Part shown: piece after piece, positions 31,458-36,294 of the stretch
Layout: the number at the start of each line of letters is the position of its first letter
Position numbering within the stretch: the stretch's first letter is position 1
NCBI RefSeq assembly: GCF_002288065.1
Contig: NZ_CP016773.1
Span: forward strand, 930,001-994,000
Length of the DNA stretch: 64,000 nucleotides
Origin: Candidatus Planktophila sulfonica
GTDB taxonomy: Bacteria > Actinomycetota > Actinomycetes > Nanopelagicales > Nanopelagicaceae
Reading direction: 5' to 3'
Position numbers and translations under genes: made by a program
The notes under the pieces: generated by a model
What the model was told of the DNA's origin: nothing
Seen by the model: the letters and a program-made list of their open reading frames with translations, nothing else
The model's database searches: none

Positions 31458-32027
31458 ATGACTGCTGTCTTGCCACACCTGATCTGGATAGATTGCGAAA
31501 TGACTGGGCTCGATCTCACGACCGATGCCCTCGTTGAAATTGCAGTCCTCGTTACCGACTCTGATTTAAATGTGATTGGTGATGGCGTTGATGTCGTTAT
31601 TCATGCAACGCAAGGTGAACTCGATTCCATGAATGACTTTGTTCGCGAGATGCATACTTCTTCGGGTCTCATAACTGAAATCCCTAATGGAATTTCGATG
31701 TCAGCGGCTGAAGAACAGATACTTACTTATCTGCAATCAGCTGGTACCGAGCCAGGTAAATCTCCCTTGGCAGGAAACTCTGTCTCAGTCGATCGCAACT
31801 TCATCGCCCGGGATATGTTGAAGTTAAATGAATACCTTCATTACCGAACCATCGATGTCTCATCGATTAAAGAGCTTGCTCGTCGCTGGTACCCAAAGAC
31901 CTATTTCGCAGCCCCAGCCAAGACGGGCAATCACCGCGCGTTGGGCGATATTCGTGACTCAATCGCTGAACTGGCCTACTACCGCCAAGCGCTATTTATC
32001 GATTCAGGGCGCGAGCAGGTAAAGTAG
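31458..32027 (+). CDS. orn: Oligoribonuclease
   Basis: Orn degrades 2-5-nt RNA fragments and linear dinucleotides such as pGpG. The 189-residue protein has the DEDDh exonuclease motifs WIDCEMTGLDL (motif I), NSVSVDRNFI (motif II) and HRALGDIRDSI (motif III). The ATG at 31458 was chosen because the only longer start overlaps the pst PHO-box-like region and adds unrelated residues. Confidence 0.95.
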   Translation: MTAVLPHLIWIDCEMTGLDLTTDALVEIAVLVTDSDLNVIGDGVDVVIHATQGELDSMNDFVREMHTSSGLITEIPNGISMSAAEEQILTYLQSAGTEPGKSPLAGNSVSVDRNFIARDMLKLNEYLHYRTIDVSSIKELARRWYPKTYFAAPAKTGNHRALGDIRDSIAELAYYRQALFIDSGREQVK

Positions 32028-32043
32028 CCCCTGCACAGCACAT

Positions 32044-32120
32044 GGTGGGCGTAGCTCAGCTGGTAGAGCACTCGGTTGTGGTCCGAGATGTCGCGGGTTC
32101 GAGCCCCGTCGTTCACCCCA
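32044..32120 (+). tRNA. tRNA-His (anticodon GTG)
   Basis: The anticodon stem CTCGG/CCGAG encloses loop TTGTGGT (anticodon GTG). An extra 5' G (32044) opposite C73 (32117) is the tRNA-His identity element, and CCA is encoded at 32118-32120. Confidence 0.95.
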
Positions 32121-32161
32121 AGTTTTTCTTCTCAACATTTATGTAAAGAGAGTCGGTTCAT

Positions 32162-32647
32162 ATGATCTTCGACGTCGTTGTTGAAATTCCTGCAGGTTCA
32201 CGCAATAAGTACGAGATCAATCACGATACTCACGAAGTCCGCCTCGACCGCATGCTCTTTACTGCGACTCGTTTCCCTCATGATTACGGTTTCGTAAAGA
32301 ACACTCTCTCAAATGATGGCGACCCACTTGATGCTTTGATCATGTTGGATGAACCAACATTTCCTGGCTGCGTAGTTTCATGCCGCGTCATCGGAATGTT
32401 TCGCATGACCGACGAAAAGGGTGGCGACGACAAGCTTCTCTGTGTAGCTGCCGGAGATATCCGTAAGAACAACCTTAAAGACCTTTCAGATGTTCCTTCA
32501 TACGAACTCGATGAAATCAAGCACTTCTTCGAGGTGTACAAGACTCTTGAACCAGGTAAAGAGGTACACGGCGGAGACTGGGTTGGCCACGACGCTGCTG
32601 AACTAGAAATTAATGCTTCATACGCTCGTTACAAGGAGACTCATTAA
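32162..32647 (+). CDS. ppa: Inorganic pyrophosphatase
   Basis: This family I enzyme hydrolyses pyrophosphate and drives biosynthesis. The 161-residue protein has the active-site set: NKYEI(N), the signature DGDPLDALIML near residue 56 with catalytic Asp residues, and the KGGDDKLLCV stretch. It is followed closely (2 nt) by amtB, whose Shine-Dalgarno AAGGAG lies in the ppa end. Confidence 0.96.
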   Translation: MIFDVVVEIPAGSRNKYEINHDTHEVRLDRMLFTATRFPHDYGFVKNTLSNDGDPLDALIMLDEPTFPGCVVSCRVIGMFRMTDEKGGDDKLLCVAAGDIRKNNLKDLSDVPSYELDEIKHFFEVYKTLEPGKEVHGGDWVGHDAAELEINASYARYKETH

Positions 32648-32649
32648 GA

Positions 32650-33918
32650 ATGCAGGCGATCAATAGCGGCGATACAGCTTGGGTTTTAGCAAGCGCAGCA
32701 CTCGTTCTCTTTATGACGCCAGGTTTGGCAATCTTCTACGGCGGTATGGTCCGCGCAAAGTCAGCGCTCAACATGATGATGATGTCATTCGCTGCAATGG
32801 GCGTTACAACAATTATCTGGGTTCTCTACGGTTACTCACTCGCCTTCGGTAAGTCACAAGGCGGCTTCATTGGAAACCTCGATCACATCGGGCTTTCATC
32901 AACTCTTGATCAAGTAACAGGCGCTGAAGGACATCAAATTCCTGTCCTTGCCTTTGCAATGTTCCAATTAACTTTTGCAATCATCACAGTTGCACTTCTT
33001 TCGGGTGCAATCGCTGACCGCGCTAAGTACGGTTCATGGGTCATCTTCGTTGGCGTATGGATCACCCTCGTTTATCTTCCTGTTGCCCACTGGGCATTTG
33101 CTGCTCAAAATGGCGAAGGTGGATGGATCATCGACAAGCTCAAGGCGCTCGACTTTGCAGGCGGAACCGTTGTTGAAATTAACTCAGGCGCTGCAGCACT
33201 TGCACTCGCTCTTGTTCTTGGAAAGCGCGATGGTTTTAAGCGCGATCCAATGCGCCCACACAATATGCCGCTCGTGCTTCTTGGCGCAGGAATGCTCTGG
33301 TTCGGATGGTTTGGATTTAACGCAGGTTCAGCACTCTCTGCAGGTTCCCTTGCTGCAACAGCGATGATTAATACTCAGATTGCAACAGCGGCAGCTGCGA
33401 TGACATGGGTTGCATACGAGAAGAAGCGCGACGGAAAGGCAACAACGCTTGGTGTTGCATCCGGCGCTGTTGCAGGTGCTGTAGCAATTACACCTGCTTG
33501 CGGATACCTCAACCCAATGGGCGCTCTTGCACTCGGGCTCATCGCAGGTGTTGTCTCTGCTTGGGCAGTTACTCGTAAATACAAATTTGGGTACGACGAT
33601 TCACTCGATGTTGTTGGCGTACACGGAGTCGGCGGAATCCTCGGAATGATCGCTATCGGACTCCTTGCAACTGTGACAGCAAATGAAGCTGGCGCTGATG
33701 GACTTTTCTTCAGCGGCGGAACAACTCAGCTCAATCGTCAGCTGATTGCAGTTGTCGCTGTTGCTGCCTTCTCATTTATTGCAACATGGCTTATCGCCAC
33801 AGTCATTCAAAAGACCATCGGTTTCCGCGTTTACCGCGATGACGAGCTCACTGGTTTGGATACAACTTTCCACGCTGAATCTGCTTACGACATCACTGGA
33901 AACTCAAACCGTTACTAG
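32650..33918 (+). CDS. amtB: Ammonium transporter (Amt family) with altered twin-His pore
   Basis: Amt proteins conduct ammonium across the membrane. The 422-residue protein has about 11 membrane helices and the family stretches FYGGMVRAKSALN, HWAF and MLWFGWFGFNAGSA. The pore usually carries two His; here the second is present at His324 (DVVGVHGVGGILG) but the first is Glu176 in DFAGGTVVEIN, where most bacterial Amts have His. The same substitution is known in some fungal Mep proteins. The PII gene follows by 30 nt, a standard pairing that lets PII block the channel when nitrogen is abundant. Confidence 0.95.
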   Translation: MQAINSGDTAWVLASAALVLFMTPGLAIFYGGMVRAKSALNMMMMSFAAMGVTTIIWVLYGYSLAFGKSQGGFIGNLDHIGLSSTLDQVTGAEGHQIPVLAFAMFQLTFAIITVALLSGAIADRAKYGSWVIFVGVWITLVYLPVAHWAFAAQNGEGGWIIDKLKALDFAGGTVVEINSGAAALALALVLGKRDGFKRDPMRPHNMPLVLLGAGMLWFGWFGFNAGSALSAGSLAATAMINTQIATAAAAMTWVAYEKKRDGKATTLGVASGAVAGAVAITPACGYLNPMGALALGLIAGVVSAWAVTRKYKFGYDDSLDVVGVHGVGGILGMIAIGLLATVTANEAGADGLFFSGGTTQLNRQLIAVVAVAAFSFIATWLIATVIQKTIGFRVYRDDELTGLDTTFHAESAYDITGNSNRY

Positions 33919-33924
33919 TATTGA

Positions 33925-34287
<363 letters not shown>

Positions 34288-34295
34288 TAAAGTGC

Positions 34296-35633
34296 ATGAC
34301 ACAGTCTCTTAAGACCCAAAGTTGGGCAACGCCCGCTTCGCAAGAAATCATCACTCGTATCGCTTCTCAAGTCGATACCAAGTCAGGTGCTGATGTTCAG
34401 AAGTGGATCGAAGAGCTAGCGCAAGAGAACCATCGCCTTCACGATATTGAAGGAATCAATCTCAATCCAGCAACAAATATTCTCAACCCTCGCGCCGAAA
34501 AGTTGCTTGCATCCGGAATGGGTTCACGTGCATCCCTTGGCCATCCAGGAGATAAGTACGAAACAGGACTTGGCGCAATCGAGCAAATTGAAATCATCAC
34601 TCAGGAACTTGCCTGCGAAGTATTTGGATCAACGTATGCAGAATTCCGCGTTCCATCAGGTGCTATTGCAAACCTGTATGCATTCATGGCAACAACCGAA
34701 CCGGGCGACACCATCATCGCTCCCCCAGCAACTATCGGCGGCCACGTCACTCACCACAAGGGTGGATCAGCTGGTCTCTATCGCCTCAACACAATCTCTG
34801 CACCTGTCGATGAAACCGGATACACAATCGATATCGACGCGCTTCGCAAACTTGCTCACGAAGTAAAGCCCAAGCTCATCACAGTTGGTGGTTCTCTCAA
34901 CCTCTTCCACCACCCCATCGCCAAGGTTCGCGAGATTGCTGATGAAGTCGGCGCAAAGGTTTTATTCGATGCAGCGCACTTGTGCGGAATGATTGCTGGA
35001 AAAGTTTGGCCACAACCACTCGTTGAAGGCGCTCACCTGATGACTTTTTCAACCTATAAGTCCTTGGGTGGTCCTGCAGGTGGATTAATTGTTACCAACG
35101 ATGATGCAATCGCACAGAAACTCGATGGCATCGCATATCCAGGACTTACAGCGAATTTCGATGCAGCCAAGACAGCCGCTCTTGGCGTCACTCTTCAGGA
35201 TTGGAAAGCAGTCGGCTCTGATTACGCGCAGATGATGGTGAAGACTTCACAAGCTCTTGCGCAAAACTTGCAAAACCGCGGCGTCAATATTTATGCAGCC
35301 GATAGGGGCTTCACCACGTCGCATCAATTCGCAATCCTTGCAGCACCTTACGGAGGCGGACAGACTGCAGCAAAGCGCATGGGAGAAGCAGGTTTGCTCG
35401 CATGCGGAATCGGATTGCCAATCGCTGCAGTTGAAGGCGATCTCAATGGACTTCGTATCGGCACTCCAGAAATCGTGCGCCTTGGCATGAAAGTTGAGCA
35501 TATGGATCAGCTCGCTGATTTCATAGCGCGTTCACTCGATACTGCAGCTGATTCGAAATCTATTCAGCGCGAAGTTACTGAGTGGCGTAAGCAATTTAGC
35601 GGTGTGCATTACACCGTAGATCTTCCTAACTAA
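34296..35633 (+). CDS. SHMT-like PLP-dependent enzyme (divergent glyA paralogue)
   Basis: The 445-residue protein is a fold-type I PLP enzyme of the serine hydroxymethyltransferase family. Features are DAAH (225-228) for cofactor binding, the PLP lysine Lys255 in MTFSTYKSLGGP, and RVPSGAIANL near residue 118. The usual SHMT active-site run STTHKTLRGPR is altered (STYKSLGGPAGG, with Thr-His lost), so this may act on a serine/threonine analogue such as alpha-methylserine or be a threonine-aldolase-like lyase. It forms a close unit with amtB and glnB and converges on the DUF1524 gene with an 8-nt overlap. Confidence 0.8.
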   Translation: MTQSLKTQSWATPASQEIITRIASQVDTKSGADVQKWIEELAQENHRLHDIEGINLNPATNILNPRAEKLLASGMGSRASLGHPGDKYETGLGAIEQIEIITQELACEVFGSTYAEFRVPSGAIANLYAFMATTEPGDTIIAPPATIGGHVTHHKGGSAGLYRLNTISAPVDETGYTIDIDALRKLAHEVKPKLITVGGSLNLFHHPIAKVREIADEVGAKVLFDAAHLCGMIAGKVWPQPLVEGAHLMTFSTYKSLGGPAGGLIVTNDDAIAQKLDGIAYPGLTANFDAAKTAALGVTLQDWKAVGSDYAQMMVKTSQALAQNLQNRGVNIYAADRGFTTSHQFAILAAPYGGGQTAAKRMGEAGLLACGIGLPIAAVEGDLNGLRIGTPEIVRLGMKVEHMDQLADFIARSLDTAADSKSIQREVTEWRKQFSGVHYTVDLPN

Positions 35634-36294
35634 CAGGAACTTTCTGTGTTGGGCACTTTGCCAAGATTGCAGACATCGCCGCTTTCTCTGGAGCCACAAC
35701 CCACAGCGAGTACTTTGCCTTCACTGCAATTTGTTGGGCAACATAAGTACATCTAAAACTCTTCAACGGTGGCAGCCATGTTGCAGCATCCCCATCGCCT
35801 TTCTGCGAATTCAATCTTCCCTTAACGGCAAATAAATTCATTGGATCATTGGCGAGCGCCTTGCGTTGTTCAGCACTTAACTTGAATGCTCCTGTCTGCC
35901 ACGCATTCGACAGAGCAACCACATGATCAATCTGGACTTCCATGCTTGTTACATTTCCGCGAACGAAATTGATGGTCTCCCCCGAATATCGGTCGACCAA
36001 AGTTCCAGATAGAACGACGCAATTTCGAGTACCCGCCTTGTAGGTAATCGCAGTGAGATCTCGCTTCAACATGTCGTTACGGGTATCGCATCCATTGCGG
36101 TCAACATCGGCCCAGGCCTGTCCGAATTGGGCTCGCGTGTAACCGGTCTTTGGTGCGCGACCCTTCACTGCAAGAGTCTCAAGTACGGCTGTAGCCAGCC
36201 CTGGTTGCTGCTCTGCCGCGGTAGTAGCTGACGGGGTAAACCCAACAACTATCGCCCCAATAAGTGTGGCTATCCGTATTTCCCAGCGAGACAT
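35626..36294 (-). CDS. Secreted DUF1524/HNH-family nuclease
   Basis: The 222-residue product has a signal peptide (about 1-27, TTAAE) and the DUF1524 HNH core: DVDRNGCDTRNDML, the catalytic QIDHVVALSNAW, and NLFAVKGRLNSQKGD with the Asn. Cys pairs suggest disulfides, consistent with export. Homologues in actinobacteria are extracellular nucleases. A role in scavenging nucleic-acid phosphorus or nitrogen is inference, but it fits a window with pst and amt genes. Confidence 0.88.
   Translation of the reverse strand: MSRWEIRIATLIGAIVVGFTPSATTAAEQQPGLATAVLETLAVKGRAPKTGYTRAQFGQAWADVDRNGCDTRNDMLKRDLTAITYKAGTRNCVVLSGTLVDRYSGETINFVRGNVTSMEVQIDHVVALSNAWQTGAFKLSAEQRKALANDPMNLFAVKGRLNSQKGDGDAATWLPPLKSFRCTYVAQQIAVKAKYSLWVVAPEKAAMSAILAKCPTQKVPVS

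Follow-up and report, generated by a model that had tools for sequence, protein, structure and literature searches.

Does the ammonium transporter gene of Candidatus Planktophila sulfonica encode a protein that has replaced the first of the two pore histidines by glutamate, and does such a replacement mark a distinct kind of transporter or a mere accident? The twin-His motif is central to the debate on how Amt proteins move ammonium and how they select for it. The gene lies in what is here called the window, that is, the whole stretch of 64,000 nucleotides that was analyzed (NZ_CP016773.1, positions 930,001 to 994,000), for which an original prediction made from the sequence alone had proposed this substitution. 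The features on which the argument rests are as follows (AmtB numbering was taken from an alignment with PDB sequences):

32162..32647, plus strand: ppa, inorganic pyrophosphatase (PF00719), with its stop codon 2 bases before the amt start
32650..33918, plus strand: amt, Glu-type ammonium transporter of 422 amino acids, an intact ORF matching PF00909 and TIGR00836
33175..33177, plus strand: GAA codon of Glu176, the first twin-His position (AmtB 168), read directly and mapped to AmtB
33184..33186, plus strand: codon of Ser179 (AmtB A171), three residues after Glu176, placed by alignment
33622..33624, plus strand: codon of His325, the second pore His, which is kept (AmtB 318), read directly and mapped to AmtB
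33949..34287, plus strand: glnK, the PII regulator paired with the window amt, with R47 and Y51 in its T-loop (PF00543, E 4.1e-32)

The predicted Glu is indeed encoded where it had been placed, with GAA at 33175-33177 specifying Glu176, the equivalent of AmtB 168, in the motif DFAGGTVVEIN within DFAGGTVVEINSGA of the ORF 32650-33918. The accompanying claim that the second His is retained was also borne out, but its number, His324, was not: the His is residue 325, and residue 324 is a Val. The protein matches both family profiles over their full length, namely PF00909 (409.8 bits against a cut-off of 23.2, E 1.3e-122, profile positions 1-399 of 399) and TIGR00836 (451.7 bits against 343.3, positions 1-406 of 406), and the Amt domain at residues 10-413 is its sole Pfam match; with the AmtB equivalog model NF007947 it scores 336 bits, below the cut-off of 657. 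An AlphaFold2 model (pLDDT 93.6) has 11 long helices, corresponding to the 11-helix Amt fold, with A. fulgidus Amt-1 as its top PDB match and TM scores of 0.89/0.96 against 2b2f. The standard pore residues are present in the form of D168 (AmtB D160), F109 and F223 of the Phe gate, W220, S227, S271, and T281; the Phe gate, the Asp160 equivalent, and the second His are invariant across 113 non-redundant proteins. A further departure from AmtB, Phe150 in place of W148, is seen in 46 of 82 His-type proteins, actinobacterial ones included, and in 26 of 31 Glu-type proteins of the same non-redundant set, and is therefore not tied to Glu176. With Glu176 at the first site and His325 at the second, the window protein lacks a complete twin-His motif; we treat this motif as typical of the family rather than defining, because the fungal Mep1/3 proteins also lack the first His.

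If the substitution were an accident, close relatives should not share it. Alignment of the Amts of this lineage, which had been suggested as a check, instead shows Glu in every distinct protein read that shares 66.6% or more of its residues with the window protein (55, itself included); the next protein down, at 65.7% identity, has His. The outcome that would have spoken against the original prediction, namely His in relatives and a sporadic change here, is thus contradicted by the conservation of Glu among near relatives. Within the genus, 59 of 61 genomes searched have an Amt, and Glu was found at each of the 23 places of exactly 1212 bases, the other places, read in part, having His. The search of the family (101 genomes) likewise gave Glu in 30 of 30 best places read, with the fragments of G103 set aside. 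The full alignment comprised 391 sequences, 367 of them distinct. They were chosen by similarity to the window protein, mainly from one class and with Amts under about 50% identity mostly outside the set, so that counts from it should not be taken as natural frequencies. Of these distinct Amts, 271 have His at position 176 and 96 have Glu, and no other residue is seen. The second pore His is present in all 363 distinct proteins that cover its site, the remaining four being His-type proteins in which the stretch is cut. Of the 107 Glu loci, near-copies counted, 59 use GAA and 48 use GAG, and the His is encoded by CAC in 235 loci and by CAT in 48. That the Glu codon stems from a sequencing or assembly error, or from a sporadic change in one strain, is thus extremely improbable, since many more genomes, of the same genus, family, or class, share the residue, and both of its codons are in use.

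The nearest named records are metagenome-assembled genomes (MAGs) with Amts 81-85% identical to that of the window. Three MAG records (L072, L073, and L080) are titled "Bifidobacterium breve", and these titles look like mislabelled bins; the Amts of L072 and L073 are 85% identical to the window Amt. In the named genome collection, Glu Amts were found in 18 loci among the best 80 of 594, belonging to Streptomyces, Amycolatopsis, Nocardia, Prescottella, Rhodococcus, Aurantimicrobium, and further MAGs, and they are present in genomes of up to 9.9 Mb (G237). Outside the class but within the phylum, Glu was seen in none of 20 genomes, a minority of those searched, with one locus read in each, and beyond the phylum all rows read have His (Desulfobulbaceae, Deltaproteobacteria, Nitrospirales, an archaeon, and a bacterium). 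Four loci from outside the class (L346, L347, L353, and L356) show a tandem of a His Amt, glnK, and a second His Amt with the motif GGxVVHASSG, ending at the edge of the fetched stretch.

A Pfam search of the window's genome, which is a single contig of 1,344,614 bases, recovered two Amt genes. The second is:

C1:842530-843762, minus strand: second amt (L001), His-type, with the motif GGTAVHINAG and its own glnK directly downstream

The two copies are alike in family and in each having its own downstream glnK, but they differ at the two sites of interest, where L001 has His and Ala, and share only 59% identity. In a quick tree, L001 groups with L091, from a record titled Candidatus Nanopelagicaceae (support 98). 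This pairing of a Glu copy with a His copy turned out to be widespread. In the window's family, each of the 30 genomes with Glu at its best place has a second Amt match, which is His in all 21 cases read (G000 and G051 among them); in a further member of the family, G070, a His Amt is accompanied by a distant Glu Amt of 53% identity (locus L340). The sample from the class comprised 148 genomes, of which 104 outside the window's family were read; two listed places (G158 and G287) and most lower matches lie outside it. There, 61 of the 104 genomes have one Amt match, which is His in 60 and Glu in one (G160), and 43 have several, of which 28 combine Glu and His, nine show only His among the copies read, and six had one copy read, a His. 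Hence, a His Amt accompanies the Glu form in 28 of the 29 Glu-bearing genomes among these 104. The family search included 13 single-contig genomes from the window's genus, of which ten have two Amts and three just one, about 58% identical to the window protein; this lone Amt is of the His type in G014 and G015, and the third genome, G105, lies outside the residue reading. A Glu Amt with no other Amt was encountered in three drafts, namely G160 (93% complete, 170 contigs, and again with a single Amt in a second search), G018 (74%), and G023 (82%); in the latter two, missing contigs would explain the absence of a second copy but do not prove it. The recurrence of Glu, its conservation, and its presence nearly always beside a normal copy thus make it look like a real second mode of uptake and not an error.

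Did this form arise once and spread, or was it reached repeatedly? A quick tree, built without columns 176 and 179 from 113 rows (31 Glu and 82 His after clustering at 80%), requires eight switches between His and Glu, compared with a mean of 27 when the labels are shuffled, and at least four of these are forced by well-supported branches; this first tree contained a very long row (L148_p_4193), and the count stayed at eight without the L148 rows. A more careful tree of 110 rows, the bootstrap of which had not fully settled, also gives eight changes (7-8 across bootstraps), at least five of them forced. A later quick tree of 123 rows, with later loci added and a very long row (L311_p_1212) included, gives nine, at least seven of them forced. 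A single Glu clade was rejected by the AU test, run on the quick tree with the Glu group named by the trait (log-likelihood 301 lower, p-AU 4e-61), which rules out one origin of the Glu form. Judging from these trees, the same swap between His and Glu arose several times in related bacteria. Counts of change on a tree cannot separate gain of Glu from its loss; however, the rows from outside the phylum are all His, and gain of Glu is therefore the likelier direction.

Several loci carry the two forms side by side, arranged as His-glnK-Glu-glnK (6 loci), His-glnK-Glu (4), His-Glu (3), or Glu-His-glnK (1), some of these being near-copies of each other (e.g., L118/L218 and L216/L226). The tandem amt(His)-glnK-amt(Glu)-glnK arrays of L216, L226, L219, L194, and L201 (in G168, G186, G212, G200, and G224, respectively) all belong to one family of the class (f13). 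In two loci, the Glu copy is closest to the His copy that adjoins it: in L136 (Aurantimicrobium) at 78% identity, with the next best at 66%, and in L340 at 72%, with the next best at 69%. In the 123-row tree, the two copies of L340 are sisters (support 99), and the Glu copy of L136 falls in a set with three His rows (support 100). In both loci, the residue three places after the site in question is Ser in the Glu copy and Ala in the His copy.

This companion residue is a candidate for what accommodates the Glu. The position corresponding to Ser179 is Ser in 93 and Ala in three of the 96 distinct Glu proteins; of the 271 distinct His proteins, 245 have Ala there, 23 have Ser, and three have Gly. 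It has the strongest association with Glu of all positions (0.46 bits), followed closely by positions 143 (0.41) and 333 (0.40) of the window protein. In comparisons of independent pairs, Ser accompanies Glu in 3.1 of four (median p 0.25), whereas the signal at positions 143 and 333 was not repeated, the same direction being seen in just 0.5 and 0.3 of four pairs. A larger test of this kind found Ser with Glu in 5.5 of seven pairs, 0.5 against, and 1.0 without a difference (median p 0.125, range 0.031-0.453). The association misses significance in independent pairs, and a helper role for Ser179 is therefore a lead and not a result. For Mep1, it has been argued that other residues probably accommodate the Glu, and that restoring the His there inactivates the protein (PMC7048316).

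The second copy might be supposed to be redundant and drifting, with the change from His to Glu being nearly neutral since the work falls to the His Amt. AmtB and Mep2 do stay active on ammonium when a single one of their twin His is replaced (PMC3647058, PMC9040831), and a second copy is nearly always present, as this explanation would have it. Yet the pattern of substitution speaks against drift: a change from His to Glu takes two base changes via Asp or Gln, neither of which is seen at position 176; among the 367 distinct proteins, the site is His or Glu and never Asp, Gln, or Ala; and the same residue was reached on separate branches. The window's Glu clade has a median dN/dS of 0.063 (38 rows, 230 pairs, near-copies included; median dS 1.72), and for the His clade the value is 0.048 (45 rows, 234 pairs, near-copies included; median dS 1.8), the ratios being rough because dS is near saturation at 1.7-1.8. 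The window's Glu clade is under purifying selection, and a value of 0.063 gives no backing to a pseudogene or to drift, which we accordingly regard as an improbable explanation.

In the window, the order is ppa, amt(Glu), and glnK, with 30 bases between the latter two. A ppa ORF lies within the fetched stretch of 48 of the 59 Glu loci with proteins at least 65% identical to that of the window (near-copies included), in two of 283 His loci, and in none of the 48 other Glu loci; ppa is thus a frequent neighbor of the window's clade of Glu amt genes. A promoter and terminator scan of 31900-34500, confined to sigma-70-type consensus sites, found nothing. The gene after glnK (34296-35633) codes for a divergent serine hydroxymethyltransferase-like enzyme scoring 296.6 bits, under the NCBIfam SHMT cut-off of 335, and its product also scores 187.8 bits with the model for fluorothreonine transaldolase (cut-off 650); the next (35626-36294) codes for a protein of 222 amino acids, the sole Pfam match of which is the C-terminal domain of GmrSD restriction endonucleases.

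Of 107 Glu Amts, 66 have glnK as the next recognized gene on their downstream side, and of 282 His Amts, 169 do; it was not found downstream, despite room for it, in 32 and 97 cases, respectively. Among the aligned GlnKs within 700 bases after a Glu Amt, all 60 have R47 and 58 have Y51; among those after a His Amt, all 150 have R47 and 145 have Y51. In E. coli, the T-loop of GlnK plugs and releases AmtB. The preservation of R47 and Y51 after Glu Amts therefore points to retention of the AmtB-plugging T-loop for the Glu form too. In a comparison that ignores kinship on the tree, GlnK positions 45, 55, 56, and 82 differ between the partners of Glu and His Amts.

The presence of its own glnK could also be taken to mean that the Glu Amt is a sensor or receptor, which binds ammonium and signals via this GlnK while transporting little, and Amt sensors do exist (e.g., Ks-Amt5, PMC10433425; PDB 6eu6 and 8qj3). 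We nevertheless consider this unlikely: the window protein consists of a single PF00909 domain with no fused signaling domain, its gate, Asp160 equivalent, and second His are unchanged, and in fungi it is the Glu form that is without a signaling role, according to the available text of PMC7048316. On balance, we favor the view, which is analogical and somewhat better than evenly supported, that the window protein functions as a second ammonium transporter of a Mep1-like kind, paired with GlnK and kept alongside a canonical His Amt.

What such a transporter might do can be gauged from published Glu variants, which agree with the original prediction that a fungal Mep variant of this kind is known and that it alters pH dependence and selectivity: Glu occurs in Mep1/3, and changes in pH optimum, kinetics, and selectivity are on record (PMC7048316, PMC9040831, PMC10794816). 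In oocytes, currents with a Km of 258 uM at -100 mV are obtained from S. cerevisiae ScMep1, which has Glu181 (PMC7048316, PLoS Genetics 2020); ScMep2 H194E is active, with a raised Vmax and a shifted pH optimum, but instability of its tagged form precluded a judgment in oocytes (PMC7048316). The pH optimum is 6 for Mep1 and 4 for Mep2 (PMC10794816, Biosci Rep 2024). AmtB has His at 168 in the wild type (PMC10794816), and its H168E variant shows a current of 22.28 nA against 3.38 nA (PMC9040831, mBio 2022) and a Km of 12.87 +/- 7.79 mM against 0.8 +/- 0.1 mM (PMC9040831); when driven by a strong promoter, its ammonium flux appeared toxic to yeast (PMC9040831).

By analogy with Mep1/3 and AmtB H168E, Glu176 would make the middle of the pore more acidic and wetter, so that a proton and NH3 (or NH4+) might pass faster. 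The apparent affinity of the Glu Amt would then be lower and its pH optimum shifted, perhaps with slight leakage of K+. The cell would possess two gears, the His Amt being tight and selective and the Glu Amt faster, and either could be closed by its own GlnK. It is in this sense that we infer the transport activity, kinetics, pH and ion behavior, and GlnK control of the window Amt. The higher Km and higher current of AmtB H168E would, on a naive transfer, predict more capacity and less affinity; however, given the error of +/- 7.79 mM on its Km and its non-native context (Ala171), the lower affinity may not carry over, and with the variant being engineered and devoid of the Ser, its transfer to the window protein is uncertain in general. 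Moreover, AmtB is already electrogenic, and the fungal contrast between electroneutral and electrogenic transport may therefore not apply.

A less selective cation path, in which the main gain is passage of methylammonium or K+ rather than ammonium capacity, might also be read from the same variant, since H168E has a 12-fold higher methylammonium current and weakly rescues the growth of a yeast K+ uptake mutant (PMC9040831). However, the available text of that study reports no measurable K+ current for H168E in liposomes and, per its authors, an unaltered discrimination between methylammonium and ammonium (PMC9040831), and the window gene adjoins glnK, a nitrogen regulator; we deem this path a poor candidate. 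The ecological suggestions made with the original prediction fare less well than its molecular ones. A role in tuning ammonium capture in an oligotroph is doubtful in view of the higher Km of AmtB H168E and of the soil genera that share the trait, and nothing in our analysis backs a role in ammonium retention. Indeed, with the Glu form found in soil genera (Streptomyces, Nocardia, and Amycolatopsis) and in genomes as large as 9.9 Mb, adaptation to oligotrophy can be rejected as its general cause.

The recurrent bacterial Glu form, its close His sisters within one genome, and a candidate helper residue together constitute natural matched pairs, which could be used to test whether the first twin-His residue sets rate, affinity, pH response, and selectivity. 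Were the two-gear reading to be true, the disputed role of this residue would become testable in proteins built for Glu. These observations also carry the warning that it can be a mistake to regard all annotated Amts as one and the same high-affinity transporter, and this in a genome resembling those of abundant freshwater actinobacteria. The literature has an ammonium transporter listed for acI genomes (PMC5301498) and three Amts, all under GlnR control and reported without their pore residue, in M. smegmatis (PMC3662644). Glu at the first twin-His site is described as a feature of fungal Mep1/3 (PMC7048316, PMC9040831); no description of a bacterial Glu Amt was found in the literature searched, which took in the available text of two reviews (PMC10433425, PMC10794816), nor any paper joining "twin-His" with Actinobacteria, subscription journals lying mostly outside both searches.

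Among the systems already characterized, Sd-Amt1 has a signaling domain fused after its Amt domain. The window Amt differs from it, and from Ks-Amt5, which also carries one (PMC5764959), in having no such fused domain. E. coli AmtB shares the fold of the window Amt (Foldseek prob 1.00) at about 40-42% identity, and its variant in 2now, a PDB entry with a title naming a twin-His study, even reads VVEIN, with Glu168 apparent from its sequence; unlike the natural form with its Ser179, this engineered protein has Ala171. Also close in kind are the fungal Mep1 and Mep3, which likewise have Glu at the first twin-His site and occur beside a His-type paralogue, Mep2 (PMC9040831, PMC7048316). The window Amt differs from these in being bacterial and in adjoining glnK. 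The bacterial Glu Amts branch among the His-type actinobacterial Amts, in trees without fungal rows, and ScMep1 has a further Glu one place before its second His (PMC9040831), where the window Amt has Val324. From its sequence, the window Amt can thus be said to resemble Mep1, not to be one. Beyond this individual likeness, it is somewhat more likely than not that bacteria of this class repeatedly evolved a two-gear system in which a Glu Amt joins a His Amt, in many cases as its neighbor and with one GlnK for each, much as Mep1 joins Mep2 in fungi, and that a helper change from Ala to Ser one helix turn on is what makes the replacement of His by Glu workable.
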